A stretch of DNA of 64,000 nt, taken from Hydrogenovibrio kuenenii DSM 12350 (GTDB lineage: Bacteria; Pseudomonadota; Gammaproteobacteria; Thiomicrospirales; Thiomicrospiraceae). Every line of letters begins with the position of its first letter. Within the stretch, counting starts at the first letter, position 1. The notes beneath the pieces are model-generated. The model searched no databases and was not told where the DNA came from. It saw only the letters and a list, made by a program, of their open reading frames with translations. The translations under genes and the position numbers were made by a program. Where the stretch lies: assembly GCF_000526715.1 (NCBI RefSeq), contig NZ_JAGP01000001.1:1-64000 (forward strand), in the 5' to 3' direction. Positions 45,551-64,000 of the stretch are shown piece by piece.

Positions 45551-46300
45551 ATGTCGAAAAACATCGGTTTAATCATAATTGGTGATGAAATTTTATCTGG
45601 TAAGCGCCAAGATAAACATCTCAAGCAAGCGAATGAACTATTTCGGCCTAGAGGTCTGTCGATAAGTTGGGTCAAAATAGTAGGTGACCATGCTGATTTT
45701 CTCGTACAGACGCTAAAAGAAAGTTTTGCTTCGGGTGATGTGGTGTTCTGCTTCGGCGGCATAGGCGCTACACCTGATGATCGTACCCGACAGAGTGCCG
45801 CCGCTGCTTTGGAACTACCGCTTGAACGTCACCCTGACGCCGTCTCCGAGATTGAAGCACAGTTTGGTAAAGAGGCATATCCGCAACGGATACATATGGC
45901 AGAGTACCCTAAAGGTTCTGCAATTATTCCTAATTTCTTTAACCGCGTACCAGGTTTTTCTATTCAAGAGCACTATTTTATGCCGGGTTTCCCTATGATG
46001 GCACAGCCGATGATGAGTTGGGTGCTCAATACTTACTATTCTGATTGGCAGCAAGAACCTAGAATTGAGCTTTCCATTCGACTAATTGGGGGGCAGGAAT
46101 CGGAGTGGGTTGAGTTTATGGAATCCTTTGAAGAGCGCTTTCCTGAATTAAGGCTTTTCAGTTTGCCGACTATTTCCGAGAATGGGAATCGCAGCATAGA
46201 AATGGGCGTGGAAGGCGTAAATAAACTAGCTGTGGAAGGTCTTGAAGTTTTGAAACAGGAGGCAGAAGCTAGAAAACATGCCTATGAAATTATTGTGTGA
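45551..46300 (+). CDS. CinA/MoaB-like molybdopterin-binding-fold protein
   Basis: A 249-residue protein starting MSKNIGLIIIGDEILSGKRQDKH, with the CFGGIGATPDD loop that defines the MoCF-binding/CinA N-terminal fold (usual TGGLGPTxDD). The CinA C-terminal pyridine-nucleotide deamidase domain is absent. Such stand-alone proteins are common and of uncertain function. I chose ATG 45551 over an upstream TTG 45545. The stop overlaps a possible GTG start of the following flavoprotein gene, suggesting an operon. Confidence 0.85.
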   Translation: MSKNIGLIIIGDEILSGKRQDKHLKQANELFRPRGLSISWVKIVGDHADFLVQTLKESFASGDVVFCFGGIGATPDDRTRQSAAAALELPLERHPDAVSEIEAQFGKEAYPQRIHMAEYPKGSAIIPNFFNRVPGFSIQEHYFMPGFPMMAQPMMSWVLNTYYSDWQQEPRIELSIRLIGGQESEWVEFMESFEERFPELRLFSLPTISENGNRSIEMGVEGVNKLAVEGLEVLKQEAEARKHAYEIIV

Positions 46301-46335
46301 CCCATTTCAAAACCTTATCCTCAAGTCTAATCAAT

Positions 46336-47541
46336 ATGACTGATTCACCTATCCAATTTGATGTTGTTGTCCTCGGAGCAGGCGCTTCGGGTCTAATGTG
46401 TGCAGCGCAAGCGGGCTATCGCGGGCGCTCTGTTTTAGTGGTGGATCATGCTCCTAAAGCGGCAGCGAAAATTCGAATTTCAGGTGGCGGTAAATGCAAC
46501 TTTACCAATGTTAATGCATCCTTTAATAACTATATTTGCGCTAATCCACACTTTGTTAAAAGCGCACTTTCGCGTTATACGTCACAAGACTTTATTGACC
46601 TAGTTGATCGACATGGTTTGGAATACGAAGAAAGAGAGCTCGGTAAACTGTTTTGTGCTCAGAGAGCGGGCGATTTGATTCAAATTCTACGAACTGAATG
46701 TGATTGGGCGGGTGTCGAGCTTTGGCTTGGTACAGACATTCGGCAAGTCTCTGCGCTATCCGATAAGAAAGGCTATTTGGTATTAACCTCGCAAGGCGTA
46801 GTTCAGTGTGAGTCTTTGGTTGTGGCGACGGGTGCTTTGTCTTTCCCAAAATTAAAGGCGACGGATTTAGGCTATCGCCTAGCAAAGCAGTTTGGTTTGG
46901 CGGTTAACGCATCTCGGCCGGGTTTGGTGCCTTTGCTGTTGGATAATAGGTGGTTAACATTTTGCCAGCAATTAAGCGGTATTGCGCTTGATGTGAGTGT
47001 GGGTTTGGTAGCAGAAAGCAAACAGACTCCGATATTTAATGAGGCAATATTGTTTACTCACCAGGGGTTGAGTGGCCCTGGAATTTTACAGATATCTAAT
47101 TATTGGCTGCCAGGACAAGGTATTGAGATTAATTTGCTGCCAAATCTGGACGTTTATGAATCCTTGCTGACATTGAAAGAATCTAACCAATATCTGTATA
47201 AATGGCTTAACCAATTTTGGCCAAAAAAGTTTACTCAAGCCTGGTTAAGTCAGTTTCCAATGCCCGAACGTTTAGCAGAGGTTTCACATGAAACGCTTAA
47301 GAACTATGCGCATTTGTTAACGCATTGGGCGATATATCCTTCTGATACAGCAGGCTATGATAAGGCTGAAGTTACGCTTGGTGGCGTGGATACAGACATG
47401 ATTCAGTCGAAGGACTGCCAAGTCAAGCACCAACCCGGACTGTATTTTACAGGCGAAGTGTTGGATGTAACCGGGCAGTTAGGCGGTTATAACTTTCAAT
47501 GGGCTTGGTCGTCAGGATTTGCTGCGGCGCAAACTGTATAA
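46336..47541 (+). CDS. yhiN: YhiN/HI0933-family flavoprotein (Tn7-like element attachment gene)
   Basis: About 401 residues, an FAD-dependent oxidoreductase-like protein of uncertain substrate. FDVVVLGAGASGLMCA is the dinucleotide-binding motif, KIRISGGGKCNFTN the HI0933 signature, and NPHFVKSALSRYTSQDFIDLVDRHG matches what I recall of E. coli YhiN. The conserved C-terminus GGYNFQWAWSSGFAAAQ ends only three bases before the transposon end, so its 3' coding end is very probably the TniQ/TnsD recognition site. The alternative start GTG 46297 overlaps the previous stop. Confidence 0.9.
   Translation: MTDSPIQFDVVVLGAGASGLMCAAQAGYRGRSVLVVDHAPKAAAKIRISGGGKCNFTNVNASFNNYICANPHFVKSALSRYTSQDFIDLVDRHGLEYEERELGKLFCAQRAGDLIQILRTECDWAGVELWLGTDIRQVSALSDKKGYLVLTSQGVVQCESLVVATGALSFPKLKATDLGYRLAKQFGLAVNASRPGLVPLLLDNRWLTFCQQLSGIALDVSVGLVAESKQTPIFNEAILFTHQGLSGPGILQISNYWLPGQGIEINLLPNLDVYESLLTLKESNQYLYKWLNQFWPKKFTQAWLSQFPMPERLAEVSHETLKNYAHLLTHWAIYPSDTAGYDKAEVTLGGVDTDMIQSKDCQVKHQPGLYFTGEVLDVTGQLGGYNFQWAWSSGFAAAQTV
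47281..47294. promoter_or_regulatory. parS-like palindrome 2
   Basis: The identical GTTTCACATGAAAC inside the yhiN-like gene, about 250 bases from the transposon end. Confidence 0.35.
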
Positions 47542-47544
47542 TGC
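47540..47544. other. Predicted 5-bp target duplication (left copy)
   Basis: AATGC directly precedes the TGT transposon end. Tn7-like insertion makes a 5-bp duplication; the matching right copy lies outside the window. Confidence 0.5.
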
Positions 47545-47552
47545 TGTGAAAA

Positions 47553-47621
47553 GACAATAAAGTTTGTCCTTTTAAAACAAAGTTTGTCCTTTTTAACGAA
47601 AAGAGACAATAAAGTTTGTCC
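47553..47621 (+). repeat. Three TnsB-type binding repeats at the left end
   Basis: Site 1 GACAATAAAGTTTGTCC at 47553-47569, site 2 TAAAACAAAGTTTGTCC at 47573-47589, site 3 identical to site 1 at 47605-47621. Spacing is 20 and 32 bases. All lie in the same orientation, as in a Tn7 left end with three separated sites. Confidence 0.88.
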
Positions 47622-47631
47622 CTTCTTTTTT

Positions 47632-47646
47632 TTAAGTTAAACTTAA
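47632..47646. promoter_or_regulatory. Palindrome upstream of tnsA, possible operator
   Basis: TTAAGTT-A-AACTTAA, a perfect odd palindrome 30 bases before the tnsA start and next to the third TnsB site. It is likely part of the tnsABC control region. Confidence 0.45.
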
Positions 47647-47676
47647 CTAGGTTAAAGCTCTATGGGATAAGCTTCT

Positions 47677-48498
47677 ATGCCTAGAAGAAAATTGCAGTCA
47701 AATCAAGATTTCAATCGCGCTTTGCAGCATAAATATGGTTTGGGAAATGGTCAGGATTACAAACCATGGTTAAGGGTTCAAGATGTTCCCTCTAATGGCA
47801 CTAGATCAGAAATTTTCGGATTGAAAACGAGACGAGTGCATCACACACTTTCGTCACTTGAAACAGAACTATTCTATATTTTGGAGTTTAATGATTCTGT
47901 TGTCGATATTCGAGAGCAGTTTCCATTGATACCTCTACCTCTTTCTATAAGTATTTCTTCACTGCTTTGTATTGAGCACCCAAAACATCCAGTATCTAAA
48001 GAGCCAATTGTCTTAACAACTGATTTTTTGATTACGAGGCGTATTGAAAACGAAATTTTTTATGAAGCAGTTTCAGTAAAGCCTGAAGGGTTATTGTCTG
48101 CTCGTAGTCTTGAAAAAATTGAGATTGAACGGGTCTGGTGGGAGTTGCAGGGTATTAAGTTTTGGATATTTACAGGTAATGAAAAGACAAAATTACAGAG
48201 CAAAAACATTAATTGGTTTACACACGCAATAAGACAACGAGAAGCTTTTGATGATTCTATTCTTCAGGGAGCGCTTGCTATTCTTAATATAGGGAAGTTT
48301 TTAAAAAAGGATGTGGTTGAAAAGTTTGAACAACTTTTAAATATTGAATCGGGGCAAGGTCTTGAACTTTTAAGGTCTTTAATTGCCTTGAAGATGATAT
48401 CGGTATGCTTGGATTATGAAATTGAGAGCTCTGAAATTATTGAAATTCAGTCTTTAATTTCCATGAAGGAGGCCAAATATGCCAATTCTTGGAAATAG
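47677..48498 (+). CDS. tnsA: Tn7-like transposase subunit TnsA
   Basis: A 273-residue endonuclease that cuts the 5' ends of the transposon, working with TnsB. The restriction-enzyme-like active site is intact: E62 (LETEL), D116 (TTDFLI) and K135 (VSVKPEG), close to Tn7 TnsA E63, D114 and K132. A C-terminal helical domain follows. Having TnsA implies cut-and-paste transposition. The 3' end overlaps tnsB by 20 bases. The ribosome site is weak. Confidence 0.95.
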   Translation: MPRRKLQSNQDFNRALQHKYGLGNGQDYKPWLRVQDVPSNGTRSEIFGLKTRRVHHTLSSLETELFYILEFNDSVVDIREQFPLIPLPLSISISSLLCIEHPKHPVSKEPIVLTTDFLITRRIENEIFYEAVSVKPEGLLSARSLEKIEIERVWWELQGIKFWIFTGNEKTKLQSKNINWFTHAIRQREAFDDSILQGALAILNIGKFLKKDVVEKFEQLLNIESGQGLELLRSLIALKMISVCLDYEIESSEIIEIQSLISMKEAKYANSWK

Positions 48499-50593
48499 TG
48501 TTTGGAATGCTAAAAATGTGCTGGGTTTGGAAGATGGTTTATACAGGGTGATATCTGTTGTTTTTCAAACAAAAGAAATAATCTTGTTTCCAATAATTAA
48601 TCAGACGGCAGAAATCAAACCTTTATGTGTGCCACTAGATTTTTTTGAAGAAGCAATAACCGATAAATCCATTATCAAATTTGATTTTGAATTGCCCAGT
48701 TTCATGCAGAAAGCTGACTCAGAAATATCGGAAAAAGAATTAAAGAAAAGAAATCATAATCTGTACTTGATTAGCGGATTAATAGAAGATAGCCAATTCA
48801 TTTATGAATATGCCAAAAATAAAAAAATTTCTAGGCTTGCAGAGCATGCCACCAAAGTTGGAACTTATCGAAAAAGATTAGCGCGATTACTAACTCTTTA
48901 TTGGAAGTTCGGACAATCATCTAATGCGTTACTTCCCTTTTATCAGAATAGCGGCGCGCCAGGAAAGCCTAAAATTGCAAAAAGTAGTACTCTAGGAGCA
49001 CCAAAGAGCACTAGAACCTTGGCCGTTACAACTTCTGAAAAATATGTCCTGCAACCAGTGGATAAAAAAAACATCAAGTCATACTTGAAAAAACACTTCT
49101 TAATTGTGAATGGCCCTGCTTTAAAAAAAGTTTATGAAGATTTTTTAAAAAAACATCATTCGGAAGAATTAAAGTTGGCAAAACTAAAAGGGCGAGTCCC
49201 ACTTGTACCAAGTTTTCGACAATTTAGTTACTGGAAGCGCCAATTTTTCACAAAAGATGAAATCATCCGCAAAAGAAATTCTGAGCACCATATTAATTTA
49301 AAAAGCAGAGCGGTCATTGGAAGCGTTAAAGATGAATGGAAAGTACCTGGTAGTTGCTTTGAGTTAGACGCAACAGTAGCTGATGTCCATATCGTTTCAA
49401 GTTTTCGAGCTAATGCAGTTTTAGGTCGTCCAACAATTTATTCGATTGTGGATAGAGCTAGTGGCATGATTGTAGGATTAAATGTTTCACTGTTCCATGC
49501 TTCTTGGCGAGCAGCAAGGTTAGCACTGGCCAATGCTTTTTTACCAAAGGCGGAATACTGTAAAAGTTTTGATGTTGATATTGTTGATGCTGAGTGGCCT
49601 TGCCATCATGCTCCGTTGAGATTGATGTGCGATAACGGAGAAATGATTGGCCTTCAACCTCAGCAAACTATAGTCCCTTTTACTGAACTACAATTTGCTC
49701 CGCCCTATAGAGGCGATTTCAAGTCTATGGTTGAAAGAAGGTTTGGGTTGCTTAATAGCAAAGTGATACATCAGTTATTAGGAACGACTCGTGGCAGGCA
49801 AGTCGTTCGAGGAGATGAAAATCCAAAAAGCCGAGCTGTGTACACTCTGAAAGAATTTACTAAAGAATTAATACTAGCAGTATTAGAGTTAAATAAGACC
49901 ATTTACGATAGTCTTGCAACGATTGACGATGCATTGATTAGAAACGATTTAGCTCCGACGCCACTAAATTTTTGGAAAATTCATTTAAAAAACCATCAAC
50001 ATGCACTAAAAAAAGCAAATCGTGAAGATGTGATTGGGCAGCTTTACCCTGCAGATAAAGCAAGTGTTACTAGAAATGGTATTTTCTATAACGACATTTA
50101 CTATGGCTGTGATAAGTTGATTGAAAATAACTTAGCAAGTATTGCTAGAGTTAATGGGCGTTGGACTGTTGAAGCAAGAGTTAATGAAAATACCGCGGAC
50201 TATATTTATGTTCGATTTGATAAGACATCCAGCTTTGTTAGGTGTGATTTGACCAAAAGGAGTTCAATGTATGCCGGCAATTCCTTAATCGATGCGGATT
50301 TTGTTCAAGATTGGTTAAAGGATAAAAAAGCGAAACATATTGCTGAAAATTTGGATTCAAATTTTGACTCGAATAGGAGTATACAAGAGGCCGTTGGCAA
50401 AAAAAGGTTAAAGAGAGACGGTAAACGAAAATTAGTAGATTCTTCTGGAATTCGACAAAACCGTGAAGACGAACTTAAAAAAACAGTACATCAAGTCTCT
50501 GAAGTTAAAGATATGCCAACTCCTGAAAAGGCAATGGATGATGAGAGGTCAAATGATCGCGTCGTTTATCTTCCGCGGAGAAAGAAAAAGTAA
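48479..50593 (+). CDS. tnsB: Tn7-like DDE transposase TnsB
   Basis: A 704-residue retroviral-integrase-superfamily transposase that joins the 3' ends. The catalytic triad is visible as D297 (FELDATVADVH), D385 (LMCDNGE) and E419 (SMVERRFG), a D-x33-E spacing like Tn7 TnsB. N-terminal helix-turn-helix segments should bind the left-end repeats. The basic C-terminal tail (about 615-704) is the expected TnsC-contact region. GGAGG within tnsA drives its start. Confidence 0.96.
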   Translation: MPILGNSVWNAKNVLGLEDGLYRVISVVFQTKEIILFPIINQTAEIKPLCVPLDFFEEAITDKSIIKFDFELPSFMQKADSEISEKELKKRNHNLYLISGLIEDSQFIYEYAKNKKISRLAEHATKVGTYRKRLARLLTLYWKFGQSSNALLPFYQNSGAPGKPKIAKSSTLGAPKSTRTLAVTTSEKYVLQPVDKKNIKSYLKKHFLIVNGPALKKVYEDFLKKHHSEELKLAKLKGRVPLVPSFRQFSYWKRQFFTKDEIIRKRNSEHHINLKSRAVIGSVKDEWKVPGSCFELDATVADVHIVSSFRANAVLGRPTIYSIVDRASGMIVGLNVSLFHASWRAARLALANAFLPKAEYCKSFDVDIVDAEWPCHHAPLRLMCDNGEMIGLQPQQTIVPFTELQFAPPYRGDFKSMVERRFGLLNSKVIHQLLGTTRGRQVVRGDENPKSRAVYTLKEFTKELILAVLELNKTIYDSLATIDDALIRNDLAPTPLNFWKIHLKNHQHALKKANREDVIGQLYPADKASVTRNGIFYNDIYYGCDKLIENNLASIARVNGRWTVEARVNENTADYIYVRFDKTSSFVRCDLTKRSSMYAGNSLIDADFVQDWLKDKKAKHIAENLDSNFDSNRSIQEAVGKKRLKRDGKRKLVDSSGIRQNREDELKKTVHQVSEVKDMPTPEKAMDDERSNDRVVYLPRRKKK

Positions 50594-50605: not shown

Positions 50606-52036
50606 ATGAGAAAGGTGAAGGCTATATACCATAAAGCGATACTGCCTGAGCATCAGGGTAATCCCTTTATTGAGGCATTGCCAAAAAAACAGAGTGCAGA
50701 AACGCTGATGGAGTCCTTTGCCCACTATCCAGCAATTGATGAAGAGGTTAGATTTCACGCAGATCCCCTTGTAAGGGAGGAATATACTCAGAGACTTAAA
50801 TCTCTGAGGCAGCCTCTTCCAATTTATTATGAATGTTTTAGAGCAATTGAATCCGCTATAAAAGCTGGTTACTCAAGTAAGAACCCTTTTACACCAACCA
50901 CGGCGCAATACTTACATTATCCTATTGATGAACTTCCTGAAATTGAGCCAAAAACAGGTTTTTTTGAACCAAAAGCCGACGGAATAACTCTCATTGGAGA
51001 AAGTGGTGTAGGTAAAACTAGTATGCTAGAGCAATTACTGAACTATTTTCCTAATGTTATTGAGCATGAAGCCTATCAGGGTAAGCAAATGGAGTTCACT
51101 CGACAAATTGTGTGGATAAAAGTAGATTGCCCTAATAATTCGAGTGTGAGAGAGCTTTGTGAGGAAATATTATCAATGATTGATGCGGCTTCAGGTGAGC
51201 TGACAAAACCCGAAGCAACTATTCCTAAGTTAATGAGACAAATTGAGCAAAAAATTAAATCAAATTTTTTGGGACTGCTCGTTATTGATGAAATGCAAAG
51301 GCTTGTATTTAAGCGCACTGGCGGAGAGAACAACTTACTTAATTTCCTCCACAGTTTAGTTAACAAGCTAGGGGTTCCAATATTATTTTGTGCAAACCCA
51401 CCATTTAATGCAACTTTGGCTAAAACCTTGAAAGCAGCACGAAGAGCGGAAAGCGGTGGTTATTTTGAGATGCATCCTTTGAAAAGAGAAAGTCAAGGAT
51501 GGGATTATTTTGTCCGTGAGTTATGGGATTTACATTGGACAAATGTAACCACTGAATTGACAGAGAGTTTGAATAACAAATTATTTGAATTGTCTGTTGG
51601 AAATCTTGATTTGGCTCACAGAATTTACAGAGATGCTCAAAGGCTTGTGATTGGTTCGGGTGATGAAAGAATTACAGAAGCTGTTCTAGAGCAAGCTTAT
51701 GCCACAACTTGTGGACTTTCATCTAAGACGGCTGAAGTTTTGGAGCTCCGAAAACAAAACTTATTGCCAAGACGAAATAAAAAAATGGAACCACAAAAAG
51801 AATCATCACATGCTGCAATTAAGGTAGAGACGAACAAAAAATTTGTAGCAGATGTCACAAGAGTGCAACACCCCGAATTTCATTTTAGGCTTCGAGAGTT
51901 AATAGAGGATGTCGCTTTAATAGAAAGAATTCAATCGCCTGACGTTTTGAGATGTGCCATTGATCAGGAAGACCCATTGAAATATTTGCGGCAAAACAAT
52001 TTACTTCTAGATGACCCTCTTCAGCAGCTTACTTAA
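50606..52036 (+). CDS. tnsC: Tn7-like AAA+ regulator TnsC
   Basis: A 476-residue AAA+ ATPase that links the target selector to TnsAB. Walker A is GESGVGKT (131-138) and Walker B LLVIDEMQRL (224-233). N- and C-terminal extensions correspond to TnsD- and TnsAB-contact regions in Tn7. It begins 12 bases after tnsB and ends 17 bases before tniQ, so the four genes form one operon. Confidence 0.95.
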   Translation: MRKVKAIYHKAILPEHQGNPFIEALPKKQSAETLMESFAHYPAIDEEVRFHADPLVREEYTQRLKSLRQPLPIYYECFRAIESAIKAGYSSKNPFTPTTAQYLHYPIDELPEIEPKTGFFEPKADGITLIGESGVGKTSMLEQLLNYFPNVIEHEAYQGKQMEFTRQIVWIKVDCPNNSSVRELCEEILSMIDAASGELTKPEATIPKLMRQIEQKIKSNFLGLLVIDEMQRLVFKRTGGENNLLNFLHSLVNKLGVPILFCANPPFNATLAKTLKAARRAESGGYFEMHPLKRESQGWDYFVRELWDLHWTNVTTELTESLNNKLFELSVGNLDLAHRIYRDAQRLVIGSGDERITEAVLEQAYATTCGLSSKTAEVLELRKQNLLPRRNKKMEPQKESSHAAIKVETNKKFVADVTRVQHPEFHFRLRELIEDVALIERIQSPDVLRCAIDQEDPLKYLRQNNLLLDDPLQQLT

Positions 52037-52053: not shown

Positions 52054-53601
52054 ATGTTATTCCCGAATCAGCTCCCCGACGAAACTCTATACAGTAGATT
52101 GATTCGACATCAAACAGTTTTGGGATTTAACGAAAAAGAGTACTTGAAACGAATTTTTCAAAATCCAAGATTGAGTATCCACCCTTTTCTTACAGTTGGT
52201 TTGACTGAGATTGCAAAAATTTCAGGTGAAGATACATATGATTTGTTTCGGAATCAAACTCTTGGCTCCCTTTTCATCTACTTGATGCCTGTCTCAGGAA
52301 AAAAAATTTATCACTCTCTTTTAAAAAATGAGGGAGCTATGGCTTTTAGGCATAGCTGTTTATCGAATTTTCGGGAGACCAAAAAGGTTACTGTAAATTA
52401 TTGTCCTGTTTGCTCTGAGGAAGACATTCAAAGCTATGGGGTGACCTATTGGCACAGAAGTCATCAAATACCTGGTATAGAGAGCTGCCCTGTTCATAAT
52501 GTTAGATTAATTGAGCTTGATTTGCCTGAGCGGCCTCACATAAAAAAAGGCTTTTTACCACTTTTGTCAGAATCGACTCTTTGCAATGAAAAGCATGGTC
52601 AACTGTCTCAGTATTGTTTCGAATTTTTGAAAAGTGTTTCTGAACAAAACCAAAAATTTAATTTGGCAGAGCTTAAGTACAAATTGATTGGTGGTGGATA
52701 TGTAACTAAAGGTGGTCGAATAAGAAGAAATCAATTGAGTCAGGATTTTTTTGACTGCGTGCAAGCCATTGATTTTCACAGCCATAGTCTTTTACCAAAA
52801 AATGAAAATGATTATCGTTATTTAACAAATCTATTCATACCAAACATTGCACAGCATCCATTCAAATACTTGCTATTTAATTTTTTCCTAAGCCAGCTTT
52901 CTCAAAAAACGTTAAATTTTGAACCCTCATTGCCTTCCATAGACTATCAAGACTCTTCTAGAAAAAATTGTATTCAATACCTTCAAAAAGGATTGTCCTT
53001 AGCCGAGGTGGCTAGAAAAACGGGTAAAAGTGTCTCTTATCTCAAAAGGTTAGCCGGATTAAATAATATTGATGTTTTGAAAGAGCCAATAGTTTTAACT
53101 CAGAGAATAAAAGCTCGTGCTCGCAAAATGGCTTGGAGAGGGTTTCATCGACGAGCGATAGCATCACAATTTGATGTTTCAATTGGAACGATAGAAATGC
53201 TTATTTCTTCAGAAAATGGATTAGTCGAGCATCGTAAGAAATGTCGATATCATTCTAAACGAAGAAAGTATAAAGCCGAAATTTTAAGGGTAGTCAAAAG
53301 TCATCCCAATTGGGCTCGACAGCAAATTAGACAAAAGCATAATGCTGCATTTTCCTGGTTATTTATGCACGAAAAAAATTGGCTTTATCAAAATTTGCCT
53401 GATGCTAGCCCTCCCACTAGGCATGTCAGAGTGGACTGGAATAAACGAGATGAGCTATTAGCAACACAAATATCAGATATTTTATCTAAAGCAGTAGAAA
53501 AACCATCATTGACTAAATTGGAGCTGATTATTGGTCATAGGTGGCTATTAAAAAATAAAGATAAGTTGCCTAAAACTATGAGCATATACAATCGGTTTTA
53601 G
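52054..53601 (+). CDS. tnsD: TniQ/TnsD target-site selector (first copy)
   Basis: A 515-residue TniQ-family protein. The N-terminal TniQ domain starts LFPNQLPDETLYSRLIRH, and the zinc finger is C117-x2-C120 with C145-x2-H148 (NYCPVCSEED, ESCPVHNVRLIELD). C-terminal helix-turn-helix units include SLAEVARKTGKSVSYLKRLAG and HRRAIASQFDVSIGTIEMLI. Size and architecture match TnsD, so it most likely recognises the yhiN 3' end. Last gene of the transposition operon. Confidence 0.92.
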   Translation: MLFPNQLPDETLYSRLIRHQTVLGFNEKEYLKRIFQNPRLSIHPFLTVGLTEIAKISGEDTYDLFRNQTLGSLFIYLMPVSGKKIYHSLLKNEGAMAFRHSCLSNFRETKKVTVNYCPVCSEEDIQSYGVTYWHRSHQIPGIESCPVHNVRLIELDLPERPHIKKGFLPLLSESTLCNEKHGQLSQYCFEFLKSVSEQNQKFNLAELKYKLIGGGYVTKGGRIRRNQLSQDFFDCVQAIDFHSHSLLPKNENDYRYLTNLFIPNIAQHPFKYLLFNFFLSQLSQKTLNFEPSLPSIDYQDSSRKNCIQYLQKGLSLAEVARKTGKSVSYLKRLAGLNNIDVLKEPIVLTQRIKARARKMAWRGFHRRAIASQFDVSIGTIEMLISSENGLVEHRKKCRYHSKRRKYKAEILRVVKSHPNWARQQIRQKHNAAFSWLFMHEKNWLYQNLPDASPPTRHVRVDWNKRDELLATQISDILSKAVEKPSLTKLELIIGHRWLLKNKDKLPKTMSIYNRF

Positions 53602-58805: not shown

Positions 58806-58835
58806 CTTGAGATTTAAGTTGAAAACTCTCATCAT

Positions 58836-58876
58836 GCAAGTCTTTTACTTGCGCACCACGCAAGTCATTTACTTGC
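58836..58876. repeat. Duplicated 17-base hairpin upstream of the second tniQ
   Basis: GCAAGTCTTTTACTTGC (58836-58852) and GCAAGTCATTTACTTGC (58860-58876): the same 6-bp stem twice, one loop base different, 24-base period. They lie between the nuclease-STAND stop and tniQ2. They could be protein-binding sites or RNA hairpins. Confidence 0.75.
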
Positions 58877-58913
58877 GCATTCAACACAAAGTGATGTTGA
58901 AAAGGCCAACAAT

Positions 58914-59951: not shown

Positions 59952-62900
59952 GTGATGACTGTAGAAGAGATTATTAATGATAAGAATTTAGACCAGCTAT
60001 TTTCCAAAAAAGATGGGACTTGTGCTATCCAGCTTTGGATTGCGCAAATAAAAATAGATAATCAAATAGATAGTCACATTTTGTATGGAAGAGTCCTCCC
60101 TTATAACTTTAGCTCAAATGAATGGAGCGCACCATTAAAAGATAACTTTAAGCCGTTTGACGAAATAAAAGCACAAGTGATTCGAGTTTCACTTTATTTC
60201 GAAAGCCGCTTTGCTAAGCAATTTATAGAGTTACTATCCGCTGGAAATGATCTGAAAAAGATTAGCGATACTTTTGGGTTTCAGTTTAGTAAAGGGTTAG
60301 AAAAGAGGGTTGGAACTGCAAGTCTAGGCAAGAATCTAATCCTCAAGCCATCATCATTTTTACTAAATAGAGATTCACACGATAGAAATACTATTCTAAG
60401 TCCGCATGGAAGTGCCGGAGTTGTGTGTGCAGCTATTTCAACTCTGAGTAAATATGAACTTATAAAAAACTTGGGGCTATATAGCGAAAAAATAATAAGT
60501 TATTTTGTGGAAAGGTTAAATGAGGAGACTGGCCTCAATTTTGCCAATGAAGATGCCGTTCGATTAGGTGATGTTGAGTTACTTGTTTTTCCAACATTAG
60601 ATAAGAACGAGATTGAACAACTGGATGTAAGCTGGCGAAGTAACCAAAATGAAATGAAAGTACGCCTAAATAACGTCCAGACGCTGCCCAGTCAAAAGTA
60701 TATTGTGCAGCTCAAGATTACGAATGATCATCAAGTAATTCTTTCAAGGGTAGCTCTTGTTGAGCGTGACGATGAAGACTTTATAGAGTGTTGTTTTGAA
60801 GTCCCTTCTCATTTGAAAAATATTGTTGATAGCACAGAAGTCGAAATCTATCGTCTAAACTCTACGGATGGTGTTGGACAGTTGTGTTGTTTTTGGAAGG
60901 GCGGTTATATTCGAGAGTTTTCTTCTATTATTCATGTTGTTGGCTCGGCCAATACCGATCCAGCAGCGCTTGGAAATTGGTTAAGTAAAATTAAAAACCC
61001 CAAAGAAGATATTAAAAAACGCTTGGATGCTTTGCAGGTGATTAATGATAGAAAAAATAAACATGAAGTATTGGTTGGTGGAAGAAAAGAAGATCCATGG
61101 GTTGAAGTAAATAGAAAAACAAAAAATTTAGTTTCTACTCTATGCCCTCCCCGCTCAGATAGCGAGTTTTTTGACAAAATGAGCGATAGCGACGGGGAAG
61201 GTTTTGTTCGTCTTGCAGAGTGGTTTAGAGAGTTGATTCAAAAGTATGGTAGTCACTATGTGTTGTATTTTGATCCATATTTTGAAGATGCTGGGGTTGG
61301 ATTAATTGCTCAAAATGCTTCATCGAAAAGTAAATATATTATTTTTACTACTGTGCCATCATTAGCAAAAGAAGTTGAACATTTCACTGCAAGATCAACT
61401 AAAAAAAGCATATTTAAGCTGCGTACTGATGAGAGCATTAAAAAACTTCAAAGTAAAAGAATAAGAAAATGCTCTAAAGAGACTAAAGTTAAAACTACGG
61501 ACTCTGGATGGCGCCGGATTGGGAACTTACTTGCATCTTGTAAGAGACTACATCAATATTTTGGTGCCATTGACTTCAAAATTTATGGCATGAAAGCCAG
61601 CGCACTTCATGACCGTTATATTATCGTTCTCGATCAAAATAAACTCCCTGTTGTTGGTTATAACATCTCTAACTCTATTCAGAAAGCTACTGAAAACCAC
61701 CCTCTTTTAATTACCCCTATTCCAATGGACACCCTGCAAAAGGTAGTGACCTATTCCCAAAGATTAATTAAAAGAGCATTAAGTCAGGATGAAGCTATAC
61801 AAGAGTTATTCGACTCTGAAAAAACTGAATTGGAACAGAAAAAAGTATTAAGCCCATTGTCTTTCTTAGATATAGCCGCTGCGGGGAATGTCTTGGCAAT
61901 ATGGACTGGTAATCTATCTTTGCAAAATTTAATGGGAGATTCCCTTCGTAATCAGATGCTGCAACTAGGATTAGTAGAGGGAATGTCGTTGAATCTAGAT
62001 AAAGTGTCAGGGTTAAATGCCTTCATAAAAAAGTATGATGAAAGACAATTCAATGCACAATGGAATGTTGTTGGGGAAGTTTTGGCGTACACAACGTCAG
62101 CTCATGTAATAGACAGTTCGAATGATGAGGGCTTCTTGTTATTGTTAGACCAGTATCTTCGAGAAAGTATTTCTGGAGTGCCGGATGAAAACAGTCCTAA
62201 TAAAATCGAGATAATGGATCCACGTTATTTTACACAGTCACTAGATGAGTTCTTTCACAGGACAGATCCAAACTTTCAAACTCATAGCGTAACGAGATAT
62301 ACGCTTGTTTCTTGGGGAGAATATTTTGCAATTAACATTTTGTGGAGGCATTCTCCTGAAAGGCTGGTGAACCTTGTTGAAGAAAGTACCAGCCATCTTC
62401 AAAATGAAGTTTCGTCTAAAAATGCAAAAAGGGTATCTGTAATGGGGCAAATAGTTGCTGAAATATCCCTTTCCATTGGATTTCGAGTCTTTAAAGGCAG
62501 ACACCTTAAAGCTTTGGCTGCAAGTACCAATAGTTTGATGAATTGGCACTGCTTTCTAGGGTTGGAGCTAGTTTTGCATAGGTTCAGGGATCAAAGTACT
62601 GCCTATGTGATGAAGTTTTTGTCACAGTATTCACAAGATGAAAAGATAAAAGTGTTAGGTTGGTTGTTACGTCGATTGCCAGAGCAAGATGAACATCAAA
62701 AAACAATTCAGGATACTAAGCAGGCTTTATTTGAAATCCTGCCACAAAAAATGAAGCAGTGTGATGTAGAGTTGTTAGTTACAAGTTTGCTTAGTCATAT
62801 GCGCCAAATTAAATGGAGTGAACCTTGGCTATTTGATGAAATAATTCAACCTTTGTTGGAAAGCGGCAGAGTTGACTATGACGATATTTGTGATGTCTGG

Positions 62901-63341
62901 ATTCGTGAGCTGGTTAATGATCTAAATGAGAAGTTTTCTGGAGGAAATGTAACCTTCCAGAAACACTTAGAAGGTAGGGTTACTCAAATCGCATCTTATT
63001 TGTTTGCTATGAGTTCTATAGAAGCCCAAACTAAGCACCTGAAAGCATTTAAGCAGATTTTAGATAAGTCCAAGCGTAACATTCTTCAGCCATTGGCCAG
63101 CACGACAAATTGGTCTAAGTGGAATGATTCTATAACAGTGGTTATATGGATTTATGCCTTTACTAAATGGATTGATTATTTCAAGGGTGAGAATGTTGTT
63201 CACAGTTCTTTCACAAAGTTGCAAGAAGATGCATTTTCAGTGATTGAGTTTCATTTAACAGACAACTTGGGCATATTAAAATATGATTTGCTTGCTTTCA
63301 TTGATGAGTCAGGATGCTTTCGTGTGAAACAAGATCAATGA
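59952..63341 (+). CDS. Large cargo protein with phospholipase-D-like HDRYI motif (VPA1262-like)
   Basis: A 1129-residue protein from GTG 59952 (ATG 59955 also possible). The N-terminal 340 residues are mixed alpha/beta. Residues about 430-600 look like a phospholipase-D-like domain: YVLYFDPYFED then LHDRYIIVLDQ, with H553 and R555 in an H-x-R variant of the HKD motif. The C-terminal half is helical with repeat character. The overall form recalls the VPA1262-type proteins named from Vibrio parahaemolyticus, which I offer from memory only. Genomic setting suggests phage or plasmid defence. It starts 138 bases after tniQ2. Confidence 0.65.
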   Translation: MMTVEEIINDKNLDQLFSKKDGTCAIQLWIAQIKIDNQIDSHILYGRVLPYNFSSNEWSAPLKDNFKPFDEIKAQVIRVSLYFESRFAKQFIELLSAGNDLKKISDTFGFQFSKGLEKRVGTASLGKNLILKPSSFLLNRDSHDRNTILSPHGSAGVVCAAISTLSKYELIKNLGLYSEKIISYFVERLNEETGLNFANEDAVRLGDVELLVFPTLDKNEIEQLDVSWRSNQNEMKVRLNNVQTLPSQKYIVQLKITNDHQVILSRVALVERDDEDFIECCFEVPSHLKNIVDSTEVEIYRLNSTDGVGQLCCFWKGGYIREFSSIIHVVGSANTDPAALGNWLSKIKNPKEDIKKRLDALQVINDRKNKHEVLVGGRKEDPWVEVNRKTKNLVSTLCPPRSDSEFFDKMSDSDGEGFVRLAEWFRELIQKYGSHYVLYFDPYFEDAGVGLIAQNASSKSKYIIFTTVPSLAKEVEHFTARSTKKSIFKLRTDESIKKLQSKRIRKCSKETKVKTTDSGWRRIGNLLASCKRLHQYFGAIDFKIYGMKASALHDRYIIVLDQNKLPVVGYNISNSIQKATENHPLLITPIPMDTLQKVVTYSQRLIKRALSQDEAIQELFDSEKTELEQKKVLSPLSFLDIAAAGNVLAIWTGNLSLQNLMGDSLRNQMLQLGLVEGMSLNLDKVSGLNAFIKKYDERQFNAQWNVVGEVLAYTTSAHVIDSSNDEGFLLLLDQYLRESISGVPDENSPNKIEIMDPRYFTQSLDEFFHRTDPNFQTHSVTRYTLVSWGEYFAINILWRHSPERLVNLVEESTSHLQNEVSSKNAKRVSVMGQIVAEISLSIGFRVFKGRHLKALAASTNSLMNWHCFLGLELVLHRFRDQSTAYVMKFLSQYSQDEKIKVLGWLLRRLPEQDEHQKTIQDTKQALFEILPQKMKQCDVELLVTSLLSHMRQIKWSEPWLFDEIIQPLLESGRVDYDDICDVWIRELVNDLNEKFSGGNVTFQKHLEGRVTQIASYLFAMSSIEAQTKHLKAFKQILDKSKRNILQPLASTTNWSKWNDSITVVIWIYAFTKWIDYFKGENVVHSSFTKLQEDAFSVIEFHLTDNLGILKYDLLAFIDESGCFRVKQDQ

Positions 63342-63416: not shown

Positions 63417-63437
63417 CTAGCTTAAATGGTAAAGATT

Positions 63438-64000
63438 ATGTCTGAATGGAAAAATAGTATTGTTACTTATATTGATCTGGTTGGTATAAAAGGCATTGCA
63501 GATCGAGGACAATCCATGGCTACAGATATAATGCGTAGTGTGCATCGTTTGGTTGAAATGGAAATGAATACAAATATGCCAAATCATGACCACTGCTATA
63601 TTTGGAATGATTCTGTTCTGCTTTTATCCGTTCTTGACGGCACATATTCCACTAGAAAAATTGATGATGTAATGAGAGATGCGAATGGTCTCAAGAGAAA
63701 AATAGATCAAATTAATCCTAGTTATGCCATTGCAGTAAAAGGACAAGTGTTTCCCGACGAAACAACATTCTATGCGCCAACGCATGATGGCTGTTCTAGT
63801 CAATCGAGAACGCTAAGGTTGAAAACTTCATCATATGCCATGGGAAATTGTTTCTTTATTGAGTCCGAGCTAGGAAAAAAACTAAAAAAACCATGGTATG
63901 TCGATAGCAGAATAGCAAAACAACTAAGTTCTACACAAACTCATACAAAACATAATGTGAAAATGCTTCCAAACAATAGTGAACGATCAGTGTGGGTATA
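63438..64000 (+). CDS. Nucleotidyl-cyclase-like protein, truncated by window end
   Basis: The frame is open from ATG 63438 to the window edge (about 187 codons seen, no stop). It has the order of a class III nucleotidyl cyclase/palm fold: VTYIDLVGIKG with D13 on a first strand, CYIWNDSVLLLS with an Asp (D58) in a hairpin about 45 residues later, and YAIAVKGQVF where cyclases have a G-x-x-x-G-x-V strand. I infer a possible cyclic nucleotide-making enzyme, as in Pycsar-type defence, but similarity is by pattern only. It lies 96 bases after the PLD-like gene on the same strand. Confidence 0.6.
   Translation, partial: MSEWKNSIVTYIDLVGIKGIADRGQSMATDIMRSVHRLVEMEMNTNMPNHDHCYIWNDSVLLLSVLDGTYSTRKIDDVMRDANGLKRKIDQINPSYAIAVKGQVFPDETTFYAPTHDGCSSQSRTLRLKTSSYAMGNCFFIESELGKKLKKPWYVDSRIAKQLSSTQTHTKHNVKMLPNNSERSVWV

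Follow-up and report, generated by a model that had tools for sequence, protein, structure and literature searches.

The yhiN locus and its Tn7-like element

The stretch of DNA analysed here (the window) comprises the first 64,000 nucleotides of contig NZ_JAGP01000001.1 of Hydrogenovibrio kuenenii DSM 12350; behind a yhiN-like gene it carries most of an element with the genes and ends of a Tn7-like transposon, which extends past the window's end along this contig (positions prefixed C1). The features are collected in Table 1. Homologues of TnsA, TnsB and TnsC and a target selector of the TniQ/TnsD type are all present, and the tnsA, tnsB, tnsC and tnsD reading frames are open. We regard this, with high probability, as a Tn7-like transposon that appears intact and belongs to the yhiN-targeting (Tn6230) kind, and whose TnsD would read the coding DNA of yhiN.

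Table 1. Features of the yhiN locus and of the element inserted behind it (positions in the window unless prefixed C1).
Feature	Position	Strand	Basis
yhiN-like gene, HI0933/TIGR00275 flavoprotein; 3' end is the attachment site	46297..47541	+	Pfam HI0933_like 1.8e-81; NCBIfam TIGR00275 3e-112
Putative TnsD recognition stretch in GGYNFQWAWSSG codons of yhiN	47484..47519	+	Tn7 geometry; near-constant distance in relatives
Target-site duplication AATGC, copy 1	47540..47544	+	sequence; copy 2 at C1:65842-65846
tnsA-proximal transposon end	47545..47621	+	TGTG terminus; three TnsB-type sites (47553, 47573, 47605)
Imperfect palindrome TTAAGTTAAACTTAA before tnsA, possible operator	47632..47646	.	weak
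tnsA	47677..48498	+	Pfam Tn7_TnsA-like_N 2.1e-15
tnsB	48479..50593	+	phmmer vs Tn7 TnsB chain 7pik_A 4.3e-52
tnsC	50606..52036	+	phmmer vs Tn7 TnsC chain 7mbw_A 2.5e-39; Pfam TniB 1.1e-10
tnsD, presumed yhiN-site selector	52054..53601	+	Pfam TnsD 7.8e-29, TniQ 1.2e-17; tree
Cargo reading frame, 422 aa	53681..54949	+	RES-domain hint E=0.14, below cut-off
Cargo: PD-Lambda-4_A homologue, candidate anti-phage protein	54987..58805	+	PADLOC 1.2e-293
tniQ2, small second TniQ, 299 aa	58914..59813	+	Pfam TniQ 3.1e-4, below its cut-off; clade relatives; N-terminal fold match
Cargo: VPA1262-family protein	59952..63341	+	NCBIfam NF040699, 1134.8 bits
Cargo reading frame without family match	63426..64000	+	continues beyond window to C1:64019

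The stop codon of yhiN (TAA, 47539-47541) is followed by TGC and then, from 47545, by the terminal sequence TGTGAAAAGACAATAAAGTTTGTCC, which places the first TGT of the element 3 bp behind the gene, as a first-pass annotation of the window had proposed. The three in-line sites which that annotation had recognized are copies of a TnsB-type motif at 47553-47569 (exact), 47573-47589 (three mismatches) and 47605-47621 (exact); with up to three mismatches allowed these three are the window's only matches, against 0.22 expected, and three matches were attained in 1 of 100 shuffles. When the whole genome was searched, inverted copies were found at C1:65817-65833 (exact) and C1:65785-65801 (one mismatch), while at three mismatches there were 9 more scattered matches, as compared with 10 for a reversed control pattern; because the control matches as often at that level, only the exact and the one-mismatch distal sites carry weight. 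A partial third TnsB-type site can be recognized by eye further inward from this end. The distal terminus reads ...GGACAAACTTTATTGTCTCTGCACA, with its CACA ending at C1:65841, and the pentamer AATGC follows at C1:65842-65846; the same pentamer occupies 47540-47544, overlapping the yhiN stop codon. Since the right end also runs straight into AATGC, the duplication that had been put forward as putative can be taken as real, and the search for a matching right end had a positive outcome. The element spans 47545 to C1:65841 (18,297 bp), has inverted TGT/ACA ends with several TnsB-type sites assigned from sequence, and is flanked by a perfect 5-bp target duplication. The palindrome before tnsA, also counted among the boundary marks, does exist, but its value as a strong marker was not upheld: an inverted repeat with 7-base arms occurs in 58 of 2000 mononucleotide shuffles of the same 55-nt stretch. 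In Tn7 the end on the tnsA side is called Tn7R and adjoins glmS; because Tn7R too adjoins the target gene, the orientation here is that of Tn7, and calling this terminus the 'left end' is a naming choice.

Of the 55 genomes searched, 32, among them that of the window, gave a yhiN match, and 29 yhiN loci of relatives were fetched (L012-L040). The gene lying beyond the element in H. kuenenii is also present in 19 of these 29 loci; in the 17 of them that were aligned (two weaker ones were left out) it stands directly behind yhiN. Within the genus the site is empty in 9 of 10 genomes, all nine belonging to these 17, the tenth (G007, L014) having no match to the next gene in its short flank, and no full-length TnsD match was found in same-genus genomes, G010 having only two weak fragmentary matches elsewhere. 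The empty sites by which the junction was to be checked thus exist, though they belong to congeneric species and not to other strains. Once the element is removed in silico, about 30 bp separate yhiN from the start of the next gene (C1:65874), which has the same orientation, and the nearest congeners look similar; the insertion may split an operon formed by yhiN and this gene.

Association of a TnsD clade with yhiN

An alignment of eight TnsD proteins, used as query, yielded 101 relatives, from which the best 80 of 101 loci were kept; a single-protein TnsD search of the genome contigs had returned no matches. In 20 of the 80 loci, besides the window and Escherichia coli AW1.7 (L051), tnsA immediately follows yhiN. 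The tree computed for 87 TnsD rows, by a quick method with support from the Shimodaira-Hasegawa-like approximate likelihood ratio test (SH-aLRT), contains a clade of 33 rows (SH-aLRT 99) in which 21 rows are yhiN-adjacent and 2 (L076, L091) are not, that is 21 of 23 informative rows, where 'not adjacent' means merely that there was no yhiN match within the fetched stretch. The other 10 rows of the clade (five from plasmids, and five loci truncated at the start of the contig or close to it) carry no adjacency call. Outside the clade only 1 of 54 rows is yhiN-adjacent: L088, from Endozoicomonas sp. G2_1, which sits on a long branch and, having the same gene matches as genome G171, was treated with it as one case and counted once. 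A TnsD search of 274 genomes of the class matched 4, including the window's own. No yhiN was visible by eye in the fetched stretch of one genome, G048, which has TnsD-type open reading frames (ORFs), and the other end of the G171 element was not located in a further stretch of its contig.

Position of the insertion relative to yhiN codons

We took as offset zero the base with which the conserved Tyr/Phe codon of GG(Y/F)NF begins (47488 in the window) and measured insertion positions from there. Among 22 junctions inspected over offsets 50-63, a TGT is found at offset 54-61 in 20; the first TnsB-type motif is at offset 66-68 in 17/22, and the in-frame yhiN stop lies at offset 51 in 18/22. Matched duplications were identified for five elements, AATGC in the window, GATGT in G033, TGAAC in L074, AAGAA in L082 and TGCTG in AW1.7; since they differ between elements, the sequence at the insertion point is probably not read. 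The lengths so bounded are 12,504 bp for L074, 6,325 bp for L082 (in which the tnsC and tnsD matches are cut short) and 24,168 bp for AW1.7; two automatic right-end candidates, in L051 (3,272 bp) and L064 (9,621 bp), were without inverted TnsB-type sites and were dropped by eye. Behind yhiN, AW1.7 has a tandem pair of Tn7-like elements, the TniQ/TnsD gene of the second being annotated in pieces among insertion sequences.

The TnsD site of Tn7 extends from +23 to +58 from the centre of the duplication (PMC2918618), and transferring this geometry to the window gives the putative recognition stretch of Table 1. Invariant positions number 14/36 in this footprint, 19/56 in the coding DNA upstream, 2/20 between footprint and duplication, and 0/5 in the duplication. 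Conservation of yhiN alone was dropped as a marker of the footprint, the upstream coding DNA being similarly invariant.

Two ways of fixing the landing spot, by distance from the conserved codons or by the end of the gene, predict different places in E. coli, whose yhiN (K-12) is longer, with its stop at offset 69. For one TnsD of the clade, eight chromosomes were chosen from 60 listed rows of 692 records (669 chromosomal places); in 7/8 the insertion is at offset 56, inside yhiN. In these offset-56 insertions yhiN gains from the end of the element a replacement tail, DLIAVRGQ, whose stop is at offset 69 like that of the native DLIAAKSS; this tail was seen in L139, L142, L143, L145 and L146, and the identical end sequence in L147 and L148. 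A longer gene with an unshifted insertion argues for measurement from coding DNA, and suggests that the landing spot is set from DNA inside yhiN rather than from the gene's end. Together with the association of the clade with yhiN and the near-constant codon distance, this supports, at the level of sequence comparison, the earlier proposal of TnsD-type recognition of the yhiN coding region; most likely TnsD reads yhiN as the TnsD of Tn7 reads glmS.

Related elements

An element at the same site is found in G033, a genome of another genus in the same family. It resembles that of the window in its yhiN site, its tnsABCD gene order and its TGT at offset 57, has GATGT as its duplication and is 20,634 bp long; identities between the two are 78% for tnsA, 75% for tnsB, 83% for tnsC, 64.5% for tnsD and 53% for tniQ2. 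In G033 tniQ2 stands directly behind tnsD, whereas in the window cargo separates the two, and the PD-Lambda-4_A, VPA1262 and 422-aa cargo proteins were unmatched in the 40 kb of G033 examined. Because G033 shares the tns genes but not the cargo, we see one element type at one site in two genera with different cargo.

The target as such is already on record. Tn6230 sits between yhiN and yhiM (PMC10121019), a 2024 review lists it as targeting yhiN with 'molecular details are unknown' (Table 1 of PMC11406308), TnsD-directed insertion at yhiN has been mentioned (PMC10201428), and an element of Vibrio cidicii lies beside yhiN (PMC12671221). In a laboratory E. coli stock, a yhiN-yhiM insertion was ascribed to Tn7 and the attTn7 pentamer was reported there (PMC8417528). 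Chromosomal Tn7-like elements carrying pco/sil have been described about 300 kb from glmS (PMC6211086). Like the element of the window, Tn6230 and the other Enterobacteriaceae yhiN elements are inserted at yhiN, and it is their tnsA end that adjoins the gene; the Enterobacteriaceae TnsD proteins fall in the window's clade at 31-40% identity; they differ in host lineage and cargo, and in E. coli the end lies inside the coding region. In AW1.7 and L075-L080 a tniQ2-type gene is directly behind tnsD, where the window has cargo in between. Kinship with Tn6230 is drawn here from site and clade only. With Tn7 the element shares TnsABCD homologues, TGT/ACA ends and a 5-bp duplication; for Tn7 it has been demonstrated that the selector recognises coding DNA and directs insertion to a point some way off (PMC2918618), whereas here such a selector is what the geometry points to. 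Tn7 proper combines the plasmid selector TnsE with the glmS target; the element of the window is at yhiN instead, its ORFs gave no TnsE match in Pfam scans, and it has a small second TniQ.

The small second TniQ and the cargo

The product of tniQ2 is a TniQ without a large C-terminal extension. A phmmer search with it against the ORFs of the window, L010, L051 and the 80 loci returned 15 other ORFs, all in loci of the yhiN clade. The profile A2, built from 13 rows of which one is the window's, matched 10/10 genomes or records searched (six of them plasmids, AW1.7 not among them) with best E values of 1.6e-11 to 2e-103, several of these records having supplied rows of A2 or near copies of rows. 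At a threshold of 1e-20, A2 matched 17/22 genomes of the yhiN clade vs 0/22 genomes with another Tn7-like TnsD, the latter hand-picked from the 54 loci outside the clade; the best control value was 1.4e-15 (L083 genome). Eight of the 22 clade genomes had supplied rows; 9 of the other 14 reached 1e-20, L077 nearly copying a row, and 4 of the 17 matches run across a stop codon. No match at 1e-20 was found in L059, L062, L072, L082 and L084, three of which have weaker ones (1e-9 to 2e-14), possibly diverged copies. Where both genes are on one contig, tniQ2 is either close behind tnsD or some 6-17 kb off; in G171 a putative match is about 84 kb from tnsD. An iterated profile drifted into the whole TniQ superfamily and was set aside in favour of the phmmer and A2 results.

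Residues 1-182 of the predicted TniQ2 structure resemble TniQ/TnsD chains in VIA-align (nine rows with Z 4.5-7.1, the next at 2.7), where a Z below 8 may reflect merely a common arrangement; the model has a mean predicted local distance difference test (pLDDT) score of 67.4 and is poor after residue 180. Foldseek against the PDB gave no match with E below 0.13, which leaves VIA-align as the sole structural support. A C-terminal cysteine cluster is visible by eye in 10 of the 13 aligned rows. Loci with dual TniQ-TnsD are common (998 loci; PMC10293859), while no description of the tniQ2 family in yhiN-type elements was found in the literature searched, which covered few subscription papers. It is conceivable, though in our judgement the less probable case, that tniQ2 is a second selector peculiar to yhiN-type elements, built of a TniQ core and a C-terminal cysteine cluster and targeting conjugative plasmids in the place of TnsE.

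Just before tniQ2, at 58830-58877, are two tandem 24-nt repeats, each with a palindrome (GCAAGT...ACTTGC), a possible operator; these tandem palindromes are missing from the G033 stretch. As for the cargo, PD-Lambda-4_A is the one PD-Lambda-4 component matched, its partner models having no match among the ORFs scanned with PADLOC, and the ORFs that follow the VPA1262-family gene are without family match.

Alternative explanations and proposed mechanism

Several observations weigh against recognition of yhiN coding DNA by TnsD. Ten of the 20 junctions with a TGT offer two or three TGT candidates, and L066 and L088 have none in the inspected range; the footprint does not stand out by its conservation from the rest of the yhiN 3' DNA; one of the eight E. 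coli insertions (L144, NZ_LT883142) is at offset 183, behind an intact yhiN, and the comparison of codon with stop distances rests on one bacterial family. As for the clade, L088 is yhiN-adjacent with a TnsD outside it, while L076 (Pantoea) and L091 (Buttiauxella), inside it, were not found behind yhiN, the TnsD of L076 being near-identical to those of yhiN-adjacent L077 and L078. The upstream neighbours in L076 and L091, named by eye, are what we take to be one ABC-transporter-like and one HxlR-like ORF.

If what the element recognised were instead the place where the gene ends, be it the stop codon, a terminator or intergenic DNA, its fixed position would simply mirror the fixed length of yhiN, and with the stop at offset 51 in most junctions both rules predict nearly the same place. 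It is the E. coli insertions, seven of eight of which keep to offset 56 while the native stop is at 69, and the lack of any common duplication among the five elements, that make this explanation improbable. Hardly better placed, and in our view unlikely, is the idea that tniQ2, alone or with TnsD, selects yhiN and that TnsD has another role: the gene does recur with the yhiN TnsD clade, yet the five loci in which A2 found no copy at 1e-20 are yhiN-adjacent with the usual TGT offset, and the Pfam TnsD domain sits in TnsD, not in TniQ2. To a transposon associated with clustered regularly interspaced short palindromic repeats (CRISPR) and placed by a guide RNA we give next to no credence. Two TniQ proteins do occur in some such transposons (PMC11406308), and the PADLOC models matching both proteins are TniQ models, one filed under CRISPR type I-F; however, no Cas effector was found among the element's ORFs scanned with Pfam and PADLOC, nor a CRISPR-like array among direct repeats of at least 22 bases, and this identity was dropped.

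With TnsD as the reader of yhiN, the course of insertion would be as follows. TnsD would bind the conserved 3' coding DNA of yhiN (around 47484-47519) and recruit TnsC; TnsA and TnsB would excise the element from its donor and link the end nearer tnsA to the chromosome, at a point about 57 nt beyond the first conserved codon where the local sequence would be of little weight. The least certain step is the last, in which tniQ2 would probably serve a second targeting route.

Implications

What is new here, given a target already recorded, is the site rule and the recurrent tniQ2. Of 5,426 complete E. coli genomes, 685 match the TnsD of L055, from E. coli plasmid p1_STEC384, 650 of them over at least 80% of the gene, which indicates that the yhiN-type TnsD clade is common; TnsD proteins of this type presumably belong to the pco/sil elements. 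The rule is testable: with coding DNA as what is read, insertion should fall roughly 55-59 nt beyond the conserved YNFQWAW codons. A candidate second selector, moreover, goes largely unlabelled in plasmid records, the plasmid relatives of tniQ2 being called 'hypothetical protein' in 20/20 of those listed among 223 matching records. If its suggested role is true, TnsD would serve the chromosomal home of these elements and TniQ2 their transfer between cells.

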